6,178 bases of DNA from Chloroflexota bacterium (GTDB lineage: Bacteria > Chloroflexota > Limnocylindria > Limnocylindrales > CSP1-4), in the NCBI GenBank assembly GCA_021802185.1, contig JAKAAV010000149.1:1-6178 (forward strand), in the 5' to 3' direction. The notes under the pieces were generated by a model. That model did not search any database and had not been told where the DNA came from. It saw only the letters and a program-made list of their open reading frames with translations. Shown here one piece after another: positions 1 to 6,010 of the stretch. The position numbers and the translations under genes are program-made. Within the stretch, counting starts at the first letter, position 1. Each line of letters starts with the position of its first letter.

Positions 1-55
1 TGTCGGGGTGGCGGGCCTCATCGCCGTGCCCGGGAGTGTACCAGCCCCCTGGCGC

Positions 56-77
56 GGGCCCGTTCAGACACGGGCCC
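56..77. repeat. Perfect 8-bp inverted repeat
   Basis: GGGCCCGT at 56-63 is the exact reverse complement of ACGGGCCC at 70-77, with a 6-base spacer. No T-tract follows on either strand, so a classical intrinsic terminator is not supported. It lies between a minus-strand -10-like box (35-40) and the upstream region of the 278-1057 gene, so an operator or an RNA hairpin is possible. In DNA this GC-rich, an 8-bp repeat may also be chance. Confidence 0.3.
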
Positions 78-183
78 CTTCGGGCACGGGCGGCGGCGGC
101 GAGGTTCTCCTGCCCCGGAGCCCCGTCTCGGGCGAGGGCGTCCTGCCCGCGGCCCTTCCGCGCGGGTCTTCTCACGTCCGCGT

Positions 184-277: not shown

Positions 278-1057
278 GTGGCACTGCCAGCCCCAAACCC
301 CGGACGCGGATCCGGTCGCGTCCCCCCGCCGCGAGCGGTCGGCTCGCCCATCCTCGAGCCCACCGGTTCCGCGCTCGTGTCCCCCGTCGGCCACCCCCTC
401 GGCAGCCGCGAGATCGCCCACTTCTGGTCGGTCGGGGCCGGCCAGCTCGACTCGCTCGGCGTGCGCGCGGGTCTGTGGCAGTCATGGGGCTGGTGCGGCC
501 GCCACACCCTCGGGTTTCTGGCCGTCGAGGCAGCCGTCGAGCGCGGCTGGCTCTTCCAGGCGGCCGTCCTCTACGACGAGCTCATGCAGCACGCCGCCCG
601 GGCGCTCGCCCCCCACTGGCTGTTCGAGCGCGCACGGATCGAGGTCGCGCTCGAAGGGTCGGGGTGCCCGGCGTGCGAGGCGGGGCTGACGCGCGCGCAG
701 ACGCCGGAGGGGCACGACGCCGACCTCGTGGACGCCGGGGGGAGCCTCGAACCGCTCCGGGCGTTCGCCTCCGAGACGCGGCCCTGGTGGATGCCCTGGG
801 TCTGCGGCGCGTGCGCGGGCTCCGGCGCGGCGCCAGCGTGCCGGCCCCACCTGCGTGCGGCGCTGCGGAGCGGCGCGGACGTCGATCTTCCGGCCCAGCG
901 CGCGCTCGTCGGCGAGGTCGCGCGTCACGCCGAGGCGTTCGCGGCGTCGTTCAGCTGGGGGCGGCAGGGGTCGGCGACACCCGCCGACCGGGCGGGCCTG
1001 ATCGGTGCCGCCGGCTGGTGCGCGGGCTGGCGGGCGATCCTCGAATGGCTGCGGTGA
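278..1057 (+). CDS. Cys/His-rich protein of unknown function (possibly DUF6062-like)
   Basis: The frame encodes 259 residues from a GTG start. That start is chosen because AGGAG (268-272) sits 5 bases upstream; an in-frame ATG at 248 and earlier codons lack such a site and would add only a low-complexity extension. Residues 1-42 are Pro/Gly-rich and probably disordered. The rest is rich in Ala, Trp and Arg, with no signal peptide or membrane span, so it is probably cytoplasmic. Metal-site-like motifs are visible: C73-x2-H76 in a GWCGRH context, C130-x2-C133 (CPAC), C176-x2-C179 (CGAC) and C188-x2-H191 (CRPHL). A CPxC followed later by GxCxxH, with a helical 'AxLYxxL' stretch between, recalls the DUF6062 family. 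I make that link from memory and it is uncertain. The first Cys/His pair lacks the usual preceding CPxC. No enzyme motif is recognised. The gene appears monocistronic, or at most cotranscribed with the small membrane ORF downstream. Confidence 0.75.
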   Translation: MALPAPNPGRGSGRVPPPRAVGSPILEPTGSALVSPVGHPLGSREIAHFWSVGAGQLDSLGVRAGLWQSWGWCGRHTLGFLAVEAAVERGWLFQAAVLYDELMQHAARALAPHWLFERARIEVALEGSGCPACEAGLTRAQTPEGHDADLVDAGGSLEPLRAFASETRPWWMPWVCGACAGSGAAPACRPHLRAALRSGADVDLPAQRALVGEVARHAEAFAASFSWGRQGSATPADRAGLIGAAGWCAGWRAILEWLR

Positions 1058-1214
1058 TGGAGGCACGGGAGAGCATGGGCACGGTGCGCGCATGAGGCAG
1101 CCCGAAGGGTCGGCGGCCATCTGCATGACGTTGCAGGTTGAACAGGCCGTGGGCCGAGGCGATGCGTCGCGCCGGGACCATGTTCGCGGGCGGCGGTTCG
1201 CGGGCCGCGTGGTG

Positions 1215-1343
1215 ATGGGCGTCCTCTACGACGTGTCGATCCCGGCGCTCGTCGCGTTCTCCGTCGCTGCCGAGCTGCTCGCGATCCCGCTGATCGTGGC
1301 CGTCCATCGCCGACGCGGAGGTGCCGGTCGCGCGACAGCGTGA
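1215..1343 (+). CDS. Small single-span membrane protein, unknown function
   Basis: The 42-residue frame starts MGVLYDVSIPALVAF, continues as one hydrophobic helix of about 22 residues (roughly 7-29), and ends in a basic tail (HRRR, then Gly/Arg/Ala). This predicts an N-out/C-in single-pass peptide. Third codon positions are almost all G or C up to the basic tail, unlike the frame upstream of the ATG, which supports a real short gene. In-frame GTG codons at 1209 and 1212 are alternative starts, and no strong Shine-Dalgarno sequence is visible. It lies 157 bases after the Cys/His-rich gene and ends 52 bases before the riboswitch promoter. I recognise no family. A chance frame remains possible. 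Confidence 0.5.
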   Translation: MGVLYDVSIPALVAFSVAAELLAIPLIVAVHRRRGGAGRATA

Positions 1344-1395: not shown

Positions 1396-1401
1396 TATCA
1401 T
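1396..1401 (+). promoter_or_regulatory. Likely -10 box of the riboswitch-controlled operon
   Basis: TATCAT, in the context GGGTATCATG, matches four of six bases of the TATAAT consensus. It places a start site near 1407-1410, just before the fluoride aptamer, as expected for a riboswitch leader. No clear -35 hexamer is seen. Immediately upstream (1362-1388) are overlapping GC-rich inverted repeats (GGGGCC/GGCCCC and CCGGCG/CGCCGG) without a T-tract. They could end the preceding transcript or be incidental. Confidence 0.5.
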
Positions 1402-1411
1402 GTTCGCAACT

Positions 1412-1473
1412 GAAGAGGCGCGATGAAGCTCGCGCCAAGCGTCCGACCCCGCATGGCGGGTGATGGCTTCTGG
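1412..1473 (+). promoter_or_regulatory. Fluoride riboswitch (crcB motif RNA) aptamer
   Basis: The leader fits the fluoride aptamer. A 6-bp stem GGCGCG (1417-1422)/CGCGCC (1431-1436) encloses the loop AUGAAGCU (1423-1430), giving the family's GCGAUGA signature. AA follows, then a second hairpin CCCGC (1448-1452)/GCGGG (1456-1460), then the conserved 3' segment UGAUGGCUUCU (1461-1471). GAAGC (1425-1429) in the first loop pairs with GCUUC (1466-1470), forming the required pseudoknot. Compared from memory with the structurally solved Thermotoga petrophila RNA (GGGCGAUGAGGCC, then GCUGAUGGCCUCU), loop length, the GAUG elements and pseudoknot placement agree, while the pseudoknot bases covary. The linker between the hairpins (1437-1447, 11 bases) is longer than the 5 bases in that RNA. 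Family knowledge: it binds fluoride through Mg2+ ions and turns on downstream genes. Identification is by eye; no covariance model was run. Confidence 0.9.
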
Positions 1474-1499
1474 AGTATCTCCAGGAGCCGTTTTCTTTT
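1465..1499 (+). terminator. Intrinsic terminator serving as the riboswitch expression platform
   Basis: The arms 1465-1475 and 1479-1489 form an 11-bp stem with one G-U wobble around the triloop UAU. It is followed by G and then TTTTCTTTT (1491-1499), the only such T-run in this GC-rich region. The 5' arm contains the aptamer's pseudoknot strand GCUUC (1466-1470), so ligand-stabilised aptamer and terminator cannot coexist. With fluoride the terminator should be blocked and the NUDIX operon transcribed; without it transcription should stop about 25 bases before the ATG at 1525. Confidence 0.92.
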
Positions 1500-1524
1500 G
1501 TCGAACGTCGAGAGTGAGAACACC

Positions 1525-1958
1525 ATGACTGCCCAGACCGCGCTGCGCCCCGTCAAGATCCTCCACCAGTCCGCCGGCGCGGTCGTCCTCGATGGCCCGT
1601 GGTGCCTGGTGCTGCGAACGGGCCGCGACTGGGTGTTCCCGAAGGGCCACATCGAGCAGGACGAGGCGCCCGAAGCCGCGGCGCGCCGCGAGGTGCGCGA
1701 GGAGACCGGGCTCGACGTGGCCATCGGTGAGTGGATCGGCGTCACGCGGTACGAGTTCGCCGACCGTCACCGTGGCGGCACTCGCAACCGGAAGACCGTC
1801 GAGTGGTTCCTGGCCCGGCCGGTCGGGGGTGAGCTCGAGCCAGAGCCACGCTTCGCCGAGGCCGCGTACGTGACGTTCGAGGAGGCGCTCGAGCGGCTCA
1901 CCCATGACGACGACCGGGATATCGCCCGACGCGCGTTCGAGGTCTCGAGGGGAGACCA

Positions 1959-1962
<4 letters not shown>
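1525..1962 (+). CDS. NUDIX hydrolase, diadenosine polyphosphate hydrolase-like
   Basis: This 145-residue protein has a complete NUDIX box at residues 41-63: G41, E47, then R55-E56-V57-R58-E59-E60-T61-G62-L63, fitting GX5EX7REUXEEXGU. The glutamates E56, E59 and E60 would bind the catalytic Mg2+ or Mn2+. The preceding WVFPKGH (36-42) and the later KTVEWFLARP stretch resemble bacterial Ap4A/Ap6A hydrolases (Ndx1/NUDT2 type), which cleave dinucleoside polyphosphates. Substrate assignment is inference, since NUDIX specificity is hard to read from sequence. The ATG at 1525 is chosen because an in-frame ATG at 1423 lies inside the riboswitch aptamer and would have to be read through the terminator. 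A weak purine-rich site (GAGAGTGAG, 1510-1518) precedes it. There is no signal peptide, so it is cytoplasmic. It is the first gene of the fluoride-controlled operon, and its stop overlaps the next start by 4 bases. Confidence 0.95.
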
Positions 1963-2982: not shown

Positions 2983-4218
2983 GTGAGCCGGGCGACCGGC
3001 CTCCTGGCCGCCGCGCTGATCGTCGGGGGCGCCGTGACGAGCACACTTGGCCTGGCGTTTGCCGGGTTTCTCGTGGGGCTCGCCTCGCTGCTCACCGAGC
3101 TCTGGAGCCGCTACGGGCTGCGGCGCGTCCGCTACGAGCGGCGCCTGGCCAACGATCGCGCGGTCTGGGGCGACGAGATCGAGCTCGACGTGGCCGTGTG
3201 GAACGACAAGGCGCTCCCGCTGGCCTGGCTCGCGGCCGACGACTACGTGAGCGAGGAGGCCGCGATTTCCGGCGGCGCAGTCCACCGGAGCGAGCGACCG
3301 GGCCTCGCCGTCCTCCGGAATGTCTGGACCATCGGGTGGTTCGAGCGCACGGTGCGCCATCTGTCGATCAGCGCGAACCGTCGGGGCACCTTCGAGTTCC
3401 AGAGCGTCCGGCTCTCGGTCGCCGACCTGTTCGGCCAGGGCGCGGCGGCAGAGGAACATCGGGCATCGCTGCGCTGGATCGTCCGGCCACGCAGCGTGCC
3501 GGTCCGCTCGCTCGGTGGCGACCAGCACGCGCTCGGCGCGCTGACGGCTCGCCACAGCCTGTTCGAGGATCCCTCGCTGTTCGCCGGCGTGCGGCCGTAC
3601 CAGCCAGGCGATCCGACGCGCCGGATCCACTGGCGCGCGACCGCCAGGACGGGCACGCCCGTGAGCAAGCGCTTCGATCCGTCGCGGACGCGTGACGTCC
3701 TGATCGCCCTCGACGTGCAGACGGTTGCGGGCCCGCACTGGGCGCTCCACTTCGACGACGACCTGCTGGAGAGTCTGGTCGTGGCTGCCCTGTCGCTCGC
3801 CCGCCACGCGGTCGCGGACGGTGCGGCCGTCGGGCTCGCGGCGGCCGGGTACACGGCCTCGCTGCAGCGGCTCGTGTTCCTCCCGCCGCGTGGCGGCGAG
3901 GACCAGCTCGCGACGATCGCCGATTTCCTGGGGCGACTGAGCGAGGTCCCGTCAGCGCCGTTCGAGCACCTCCTCGCGTCGCTGCCGCCGAGGCTCGCGC
4001 CCGGAACGACCGTCGTCGTGCTGTCTGGCCGGGACCCCGCTCCGTACGCGACGCCGCTGCGCCGGCTCGACGAATCCGGCTATCCCGTGGAGTTCGTCGC
4101 GATGGGCGCGCACGCCGAGAGCGCGATCGCACGCGTCCGGGCGTTCGGCCTCGGTGCGCGTCGAGCGACCCTCGCCCCCGACTGGCGGACCAGCAATGCG
4201 CTCGTTCTCGCTGGCTAA
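2983..4218 (+). CDS. DUF58 (VWA-like) domain membrane-anchored protein
   Basis: The 411-residue protein starts at GTG 2983, with AGGAG (2971-2975) 7 bases upstream; longer in-frame starts would run back into the MoxR gene. Residues about 7-37 are hydrophobic with a Gly/Thr turn, fitting one or two closely packed membrane spans as in DUF58 proteins. The rest should be soluble. The DUF58 signature lies at about 204-217: R204-P-Y206-Q-P-G209-D210-P-T-R-R214-I-H-W217. After it, VLIALD (239-244) begins a VWA-like fold; the following VQT does not give a classical DxSxS metal site. DUF58 proteins regularly pair with MoxR ATPases, and their biochemical role is not settled. The gene follows the MoxR gene by 49 bases and overlaps the next gene by 23 bases, so the three are cotranscribed. 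Confidence 0.93.
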   Translation: MSRATGLLAAALIVGGAVTSTLGLAFAGFLVGLASLLTELWSRYGLRRVRYERRLANDRAVWGDEIELDVAVWNDKALPLAWLAADDYVSEEAAISGGAVHRSERPGLAVLRNVWTIGWFERTVRHLSISANRRGTFEFQSVRLSVADLFGQGAAAEEHRASLRWIVRPRSVPVRSLGGDQHALGALTARHSLFEDPSLFAGVRPYQPGDPTRRIHWRATARTGTPVSKRFDPSRTRDVLIALDVQTVAGPHWALHFDDDLLESLVVAALSLARHAVADGAAVGLAAAGYTASLQRLVFLPPRGGEDQLATIADFLGRLSEVPSAPFEHLLASLPPRLAPGTTVVVLSGRDPAPYATPLRRLDESGYPVEFVAMGAHAESAIARVRAFGLGARRATLAPDWRTSNALVLAG

Positions 4219-5545
4219 CCTCACCGCTCCCGCGCTCGACGCCCTCGCCGAGGGCTCGCTCGTGTGGCTGGTGTACCTCTCGTTCGTCGGCCGCCAATCC
4301 GCCGCGCCGCTCGGCCTCCTCGAGTTCGTCCTCGCCGCCGCGTGCGGTGTCGCACTCGCCCGGAAGGTGGATGCGAGTTCGGTGCTCGCCGGTGTCGCGC
4401 TCGCGGCCGGGGCCGCGGCCTGGCTCGCGGATCCAGCGGCACGCGAGACACTTGTGCACGATGGGCTCCCGACAGCGCTGCTCGACAACCTGCCGGACTG
4501 GCTGGCGGGCGTGGCGGTACTGCGGGGCGCAGTCCACCGGCGGCCCGAACACGACGACAACGTGCTTGTCCGGGTGCTCGCCGTGGGCCTCGTGGTCCTC
4601 GTCCTGCCGTGGCTGCTGCACCTCGGGCGGTCGACCGGCGCGTTCGCAGCGTCGGTCGTCCTCGGCTCCGTCGTGTTCCTGGCCAGTGCCCTGCTCGCGC
4701 TGGCTCACGGCCGGCTCTCGGCACTCGGGCTCGACCCGGCTGGCAGCGAGGGCGGACGCGCGTGGAGGATCGTGGCGGCCCCCGTGACGGTCCTGCTCAC
4801 CGTCGTCGCGCTCGTCGCGGCCGTCGTGCTCGGCGCCCCGCTCGCGGCGATCATGGGAGCGCTCGGCGGACCGCTCGCGTTGGCTCTCGACGCGGTTCTC
4901 GGCGGAGCGGCAGCGCTGTTCGGTCCGCCAATCGACGCTGGCGGCCGTCTGCTTTCGATCGCACCGGGCCTGCCCAGCGGCGGACCGACGCCAGGCACGG
5001 CCGGTGCGTCTGGAGTCTCCGTCGCCGCGACCGCCGGACTGCCGCACGAACTCGTCGTCGCCGCCGTTCTCCTGGCGATCGCCGCGGCGGCGGCCCTGCT
5101 CGTCCGCTACCGGCGGATCCTGTCCGTGCCGCGGCCGCCGAAGTTCACGCCCGCACGGACCGAGGATCGCGATCGTCTCCTGCCGCGCCTCTCGCTGCGG
5201 ATCCGGATGCCCGCGTTCAGGCCGGCGCTCCCGCAACGCTCGAAGAACCCACGGACGGCGGTCGAGGCATACCTCGGCGTGCTACGGAAGCTCGAAGATC
5301 GCCCGGACTTGGCGCGACAGGACGCAGAGTCACCGATCGAGCACGTGCGGCGCCTCCGCGGCGTCGGCCTGCCGGACACGTCCCTGGCACTGCTCGCGGC
5401 CGACTTCGAGCTCGCGACGTACGGGGGCCGGACATTGTCGGCGCGGGAGGAGCGGAGGGCCCTGGAGCGTGGTCGGCGGGTGACGCGCGCAGTGGGATCG
5501 CGTGCCGGCTCGGTTGATCGCCAGCAGCGTGGGGCGAGGAGCTGA
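4196..5545 (+). CDS. Polytopic membrane protein with C-terminal DUF4129 domain
   Basis: This 449-residue protein starts at ATG 4196, with a weak GGCGG 6 bases upstream, inside the end of the DUF58 gene (23-base overlap). An in-frame GTG at 4154 is possible but has no ribosome site. About seven hydrophobic segments are visible (roughly 16-32, 37-55, 61-78, 122-143, 148-171, 191-243 as one or two, 281-303). A basic, Pro-rich linker leads to a cytoplasmic domain at about 351-430. NPRTAVEAYLGVLRKL, SPIEHVRRLRG and the FELATYGGR stretch match the DUF4129 pattern, which usually follows a transglutaminase core in TgpA-like proteins. Here no Cys-His-Asp transglutaminase core is evident, so only the membrane part and tail are present. 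Such shortened versions are common next to MoxR/DUF58 in some phyla. The function is unknown, presumably with the MoxR/DUF58 pair at the membrane. Confidence 0.88.
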   Translation: MRSFSLANLTAPALDALAEGSLVWLVYLSFVGRQSAAPLGLLEFVLAAACGVALARKVDASSVLAGVALAAGAAAWLADPAARETLVHDGLPTALLDNLPDWLAGVAVLRGAVHRRPEHDDNVLVRVLAVGLVVLVLPWLLHLGRSTGAFAASVVLGSVVFLASALLALAHGRLSALGLDPAGSEGGRAWRIVAAPVTVLLTVVALVAAVVLGAPLAAIMGALGGPLALALDAVLGGAAALFGPPIDAGGRLLSIAPGLPSGGPTPGTAGASGVSVAATAGLPHELVVAAVLLAIAAAAALLVRYRRILSVPRPPKFTPARTEDRDRLLPRLSLRIRMPAFRPALPQRSKNPRTAVEAYLGVLRKLEDRPDLARQDAESPIEHVRRLRGVGLPDTSLALLAADFELATYGGRTLSAREERRALERGRRVTRAVGSRAGSVDRQQRGARS

Positions 5546-5923: not shown

Positions 5924-6010
5924 TGGTGCCGAAGCCGGGGATCGAACCCGGACGACCTTGCGGTCAACGGTTTTTGAGACCGTCGCGTCTGCCTGTTCCG
6001 CCACTTCGGC
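5924..6010 (-). tRNA. tRNA-Leu (anticodon CAA)
   Basis: Read on the minus strand, the acceptor stem GCCGAAG (6010-6004) pairs with CTTCGGC (5934-5928). The discriminator is A (5927) and CCA is encoded (5926-5924). The D arm is GCG/CGC around a loop with GG. The anticodon stem ACGGT/ACCGT holds the loop CTCAAAA, giving anticodon CAA at 5976-5974, which reads UUG. A long variable arm with the stem GACC/GGTC and loop GCAA marks a class II tRNA. The T arm is CCGGG/CCCGG around TTCGATC. All stems are perfect Watson-Crick, so it looks functional. It is not near the riboswitch operon's transcript, being on the opposite strand and downstream. Confidence 0.98.

Follow-up and report, generated by a model that had tools for sequence, protein, structure and literature searches.

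A candidate variant fluoride-type riboswitch regulon with a NUDIX gene partner in a Chloroflexota genus in which no known fluoride exporter was found

The stretch of DNA analysed here (the window; 6,178 nucleotides, the whole of positions 1 to 6,178 of contig JAKAAV010000149.1, assembly GCA_021802185.1) comes from a Chloroflexota bacterium of the lineage CSP1-4, and is contig C123 of a 450-contig genome that is 76% complete. On its plus strand, a leader RNA of the fluoride (crcB-motif) type precedes four genes, all assigned by Pfam: a NUDIX hydrolase of 145 amino acids (1525-1962), whose nearest structures are diadenosine polyphosphate hydrolases; a MoxR-type AAA ATPase (AAA_3 and AAA_lid_2; 1959-2933), which overlaps the NUDIX stop; a DUF58 protein (2983-4218); and a DUF4129 protein (4196-5545), which overlaps the end of the DUF58 gene. 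The first of these matches PF00293 with an E-value (E) of 6.4e-21 and 75.2 bits, against a cut-off of 21.1, and thus bears out the original prediction that the leader is followed by a NUDIX hydrolase gene.

That prediction placed an aptamer with a stem, a pseudoknot and GAUG signatures at 1412-1473, and we located each of these elements. The letters, the fold and the model alignment give a 6-bp P1 hairpin (GGCGCG/CGCGCC, 1417-1422/1431-1436) with the 8-nt loop AUGAAGCU, followed in the family order by a P3 hairpin (CCCGC-AUG-GCGGG; arms at 1448-1452 and 1456-1460). The pseudoknot, of 5 bp, joins GAAGC (1425-1429) to GCUUC (1466-1470), and the GAUG signatures lie at 1422-1425 and 1462-1465. A1463 and U1471 occupy the places of the A40/U48 linchpin, a role described in the excerpted text of PMC8752731, to whose numbering we matched the window positions ourselves. 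The conserved sequence and length of the AAC-type J1/3 were not found in the window, where this segment, ahead of P3, carries an insert relative to the family consensus; J1/3 is variable across the genus, and the closing pair of P3 also differs from the consensus. The aptamer itself contains an ATG (1423) in frame with the NUDIX gene, so that a gene caller that takes the first start stretches the protein into the riboswitch (179 amino acids); the NUDIX matches of relatives start at 1525.

The 3' strand of the pseudoknot is common to a second structure. An intrinsic terminator (1465-1499), consisting of an 11-bp stem (1465-1475/1479-1489) and the U-run TTTTCTTTT at 1491-1499, contains this strand in its 5' arm, and the hairpin and the pseudoknot are mutually exclusive. 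The segment 1459-1503 folds at -23.4 kcal/mol, and none of 200 shuffles folded as low; the U-run ends 25 bases ahead of the NUDIX start. A match of the RF00489 ctRNA model at 1461-1501, overlapping the terminator hairpin, was rejected (20.5 bits against 50, E 0.87). Because pseudoknot and terminator share a strand, transcription would be expected to terminate when fluoride is lacking: the terminator hairpin would claim GCUUC (1466-1470) at the expense of the pseudoknot, and RNA polymerase would stop before the NUDIX gene. By analogy with studied fluoride riboswitches, binding of fluoride together with Mg would let the A40-U48 linchpin fix the pseudoknot in place and keep the terminator from forming; for the riboswitch of Bacillus cereus, the excerpts of PMC8752731 and PMC11077080 describe a linchpin made by A40 and U48, and the invasion of the pseudoknot by a terminator.

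We give a probability of roughly two in three to the reading that the leader at 1417-1499 is a fluoride-type aptamer with a terminator, such that the operon would be transcribed only with bound fluoride, likely offsetting a poisoned Ap4A-hydrolase-like enzyme. The operon would be one unit of a regulon whose leaders carry a terminator or cover a ribosome site, and the cell's likely strategy would be extra production of the Mg enzymes that fluoride inhibits, with the ion not exported. What the sequences show is the RNA anatomy and its conservation, the order of the genes, the two NUDIX groups and the co-occurrence of leaders; that fluoride binds, that it causes anti-termination and that the operon serves to offset inhibited Mg-dependent enzymes is what we infer. 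The best reading of the whole is a regulon run by a variant fluoride-type riboswitch that has gained a new gene partner, in a genus without a known exporter found.

Several observations weigh against this reading. RF01734, the Rfam fluoride model, aligns full-length to 1410-1479 of the plus strand with 17.5 bits (E 0.3 in the window), and the gathering score of 34 bits is not reached, so that on the model alone the leader fails; the covariance-model check proposed with the original prediction thus succeeded in alignment and failed in score. For wider comparison we used 8 genomes of the genus (incomplete), 101 of relatives, 177 of the class and 14 as model controls. At E 0.1, RF01734 gave 27 matches in 7 of the 8 genus genomes; the best scored 32.6 bits, and none lay above the gathering score. 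Eight of the 14 control genomes match at this E as well. Finally, three genomes carry a leaderless MoxR-DUF58-DUF4129-NUDIX operon in addition to the switched one, and in others the switched operon is the only copy found; a spare copy is thus not general. In view of the scores we call the leader fluoride-type and a variant, and the designation as a fluoride riboswitch draws on the pseudoknot, the linchpin bases, the terminator and the content of the regulon. The leader resembles the crcB motif RF01734 in P1, P3, a pseudoknot that ties the P1 loop to the 3' strand, the A40/U48 places, and a terminator or ribosome-site hairpin on the pseudoknot strand; it differs in its sub-gathering score, in the J1/3 insert, and in preceding NUDIX-MoxR-DUF58-DUF4129 instead of Fluc, CLC-F or an antiporter.

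Since the control genomes match too, the genus matches needed a second test. The structure line of RF01734 holds P1 and P3 and lacks the pseudoknot. We registered 26 of the 27 genus matches from their ends, dropping one partial match, and read the two strands without requiring that they pair. Pairs were formed in 130 of the 130 cells of these full-length matches, the third being G-C and A-U in 11 matches each and G-U in the other 4; none of 2000 permutations paired as well (mean 124.3), a statistic that kinship inflates. The A40 place held A and the U48 place U in all 26. Among the class genomes, the pattern CGATGARGCYCG-N15..45-TGAYGGCYTC occurred 35 times in 14 of 177, and its reversed control not at all. 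A structural rule found 32 matches in 295 kb, most of it loci chosen for carrying leaders, against a shuffle mean of 0.1 and 0 in reversed sequence; we counted one of the 32 as chance, and dropped a match at window 1154-1228 from subsequent counts because it was not of the CGATGRRGC form. This comparison across genomes is the reason that we judge the leader to be above chance. A plain terminator or attenuator behind a chance hairpin, with no ligand sensing, would suit the weak single-sequence model score and the strength of the terminator on its own; the pattern and rule counts, and pseudoknot letters that vary while pairing is kept, disfavour this explanation, which we hold to be extremely improbable, and a chance origin of the leader is rejected on the same grounds.

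A second alternative accepts the aptamer fold and changes its ligand: the RNA would sense another small anion or an Mg-related signal and govern a broad regulon for stress that affects phosphate or DNA. The divergent J1/3, the P3 closing pair that departs from consensus and the uniformly sub-gathering scores of the genus would fit such a switch, and ykkC RNAs have ligand variants (excerpt of PMC7266159). Against it stand the two linchpin bases, unchanged in all 26 matches read, the known fluoride targets contained in the regulon, and the position of fluoride-model matches in relatives, in nine of which such a match lies within about 70 bases upstream of the fluoride exporter gene Fluc, on the same strand. 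We consider a switched ligand distinctly unlikely.

The overlap of pseudoknot and downstream hairpin extends to most leaders. Of 41 leaders, 37 have three or more of their five pseudoknot bases engaged in a hairpin that also takes in sequence farther downstream, against a mean of 24.8 and a maximum of 30 with shuffled tails, and 28 have all five so engaged (mean 9.35, maximum 14); automatic terminator or ribosome-site labels misassign some leaders, and we used the pairing counts alone. Two designs can be told apart. NUDIX-type leaders have a U-run after the hairpin; in the other type, CUACCUC or GCCUCUGCAC lies opposite GAGGUGG or GUGCGGAGGC, which resembles a ribosome site and stands directly ahead of the start codon. 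Both designs would switch genes on with ligand, one by transcription and the other by translation.

The link between leader and NUDIX gene is conserved. The original prediction had proposed a survey of related genomes and described a fluoride leader before a NUDIX-MoxR-DUF58-DUF4129 operon as an unfamiliar association, perhaps a new module. The association is real and recurs. In 8 genomes from two genera, the leader lies ahead of a NUDIX gene that either comes first or follows an MFS gene or what is left of one. In a ninth genome it precedes a MutS operon with a NUDIX domain at its end, which brings the total to 9 genomes in 3 genera. NUDIX is the first gene behind the leader in G000, G002, G009, G035 and G118, and MoxR, DUF58 and DUF4129 follow it in G000, G001, G002, G006 and G009. 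In the sister species G001 and G006, the same operon begins with an MFS transporter; the prediction that no exporter gene is controlled describes the window correctly and may not extend to these two genomes.

This gene order admits the possibility that the fluoride riboswitch is real and NUDIX a passenger, the useful product being MoxR-DUF58-DUF4129, acting in envelope or protein-assembly stress, or the MFS protein of the sister species. That MFS stands first in G001 and G006 and that the three genes follow NUDIX in five genomes would favour it, as would the leaderless copies: four of the five keep MoxR, DUF58 and DUF4129 adjoining NUDIX, and a contig end truncates the fifth. On the other side, NUDIX is the first gene in five genomes, and in G118 and G025 it lies behind a leader although the sequence retrieved there gave no MoxR match; NUDIX is thus the more constant partner, and we regard the passenger explanation as possible, though rather unlikely. 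The leader-led and leaderless copies form two NUDIX groups.

Ap4A hydrolases are reportedly inhibited strongly by fluoride in vitro. The window's NUDIX protein is a putative Ap4A-hydrolase-like enzyme: the nearest structures, at 26-36% identity over the domain, are Aquifex aq_158 (3i7u), Thermus Ndx1 (1vc8) and Chlamydia CT771 (4mpo). As a NUDIX family member it has the Nudix box, and G41, E47, R55, E56, E59, E60 and G62 are invariant across 30 aligned sequences (the window protein and 29 of 120 listed, drawn from 393 proteins). It shares fold and Nudix box with these Nudix diadenosine polyphosphate hydrolases and differs from them in being tied to a riboswitch and a MoxR operon. A Nudix class reported to be fluoride-sensitive in vitro is now linked to a fluoride-type sensor in genomes. 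In G025, the NUDIX domain sits in a 307-amino-acid frame behind another protein, which is a true fusion or a frame error; G035 carries a 50-residue NUDIX fragment (C6:11974-12123).

The preferred reading, in which more enzyme is made, is considered likely because no known exporter was found in the genus. Fluc (PF02537) was found in none of the 8 incomplete genus genomes and in 38 of the 101 relatives; it occurred in 0 of 11 pattern-positive genomes and 38 of 90 others (Fisher 0.006), a comparison confounded by kinship, as 7 of the 11 belong to one genus. In further relatives, a fluoride-model match precedes a Na/H-exchanger-like protein (the one tested was PF00999), a kind of partner named in the excerpted PMC11139923. 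CLC proteins gave 10 matches in 7 of the 8 genus genomes: six with GREGP and GxFGP, one partial with GVFGP, and three of a second type with GAEGP and GxLAP. Fluoride CLCs carry GREGT/V and GEVTP (excerpt of PMC5100911), and these motifs were found in none of the ten matches from the incomplete genomes. One protein of each type out of the ten was searched for identity, and both were rejected as CLC-F: the GREGP-type protein (L110) matched chloride exchangers, with none of 47 entries at E 1e-5 named as a fluoride CLC, and the second-type protein (L119) matched chloride exchangers at 1e-29 against 4.6e-9 for the fluoride CLC 6d0j. Thus neither Fluc nor CLC-F was found in the controlled operon or in the incomplete genomes.

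The MFS family is offered as a candidate fluoride exporter. It occurs in 6 of the 101 genomes, five of them pattern-positive (5/11 against 1/90, uncorrected for kinship, with 7 of the 11 from one genus), and the leader lies directly ahead of it in three of the six (G001, G006 and G096); in G096, of another family, the fluoride-model match just ahead of it scores 30.9 bits. Weighing against an export role, no leader was found ahead of the MFS gene in G002, G007 and G056, and the window's genome has no match to the protein. We therefore think it doubtful that the genus dropped both known exporters and lives by an enzyme-remaking regulon while the MFS protein forms a third class of fluoride exporter. 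In G096, two fluoride-model matches stand back to back (C84:13487-14893; L169, L183), one facing genes for 185-amino-acid and DUF6062 proteins and the other the MFS gene; on G025 C90, a leader precedes DUF6062 and another MFS protein.

The original prediction was of one operon. The operon is present, and the several such leaders in the window's genome make the module a regulon. Leaders cluster, with five pattern matches within 11 kb on G001 C82 and four on G002 C72. A tandem MutS-domain-V pair follows a leader in G000, G001, G002, G006, G007 and G025, and in G118 a leader precedes the first such gene, where the stretch ends. Further leader-led genes encode a metallophosphoesterase and a CYTH-like protein accompanied by small proteins; a HEAT-repeat protein together with a 470-amino-acid protein outside Pfam families; a 245-amino-acid protein outside Pfam families; and, in G002, DnaJ with inorganic pyrophosphatase, and a NADH-dehydrogenase/antiporter-like operon. 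Enolase is leader-led in G000 only, in one of five island copies, the remaining copies lying beside leaders.

As partners of the crcB motif, mutS and formate hydrogen lyase were named in 2010 (excerpt of PMC2864571), and enolase, pyrophosphatase and antiporters appear in the excerpted 2024 review (PMC11139923); of the partners known from these excerpts, MutS-like, enolase and pyrophosphatase genes are also leader-led in this genus. To these the genus adds NUDIX, CYTH-like, metallophosphoesterase, HEAT-repeat and 245-amino-acid families, under two designs and with no known exporter found. The excerpted literature does not name NUDIX as a fluoride-riboswitch partner, and earlier gene-association tables may list it; the NUDIX text in the excerpts concerned ykkC RNAs (PMC7266159). 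Much of what is known of fluoride resistance concerns export. In this genus, fluoride-type leaders of both designs sit close together on individual contigs, next to genes whose products handle phosphoryl groups, which raises the question of whether a cell can survive fluoride by producing more of its targets.

Some smaller features accompany these leaders. On G000 C332 (L013), the enolase gene (1126-2590) right behind a terminator-type leader has the catalytic loop SGAPTG, against SGASTG in the other genus enolases seen; the change could affect metal or fluoride binding, or could be a sequence error. At L013 135-176, a full terminator-type leader has no gene called behind it. Leaders at or inside gene junctions (L072 11119-11187, L082 1398-1467) precede a protein of 176-200 amino acids; the one tested belonged to no Pfam family, and in G025 a protein resembling it lies ahead of NUDIX within a single frame. 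At the left end of the window, the 5' half of a second aptamer (1-25, minus strand) is cut by the contig end; a whole copy lies at 237-297 of contig C282 of the same genome, ahead of a MutS-like gene pair. C282 matches window 870-1036 joined to window 1-104, and a version without the intervening stretch seems to be present in the population. Upstream of the leader, window 278-1057 holds a gene for 259 amino acids, 44-48% identical to the leader-led 245-amino-acid genes of sister species, and the right end carries a minus-strand tRNA-Leu (CAA) at 5924-6010.
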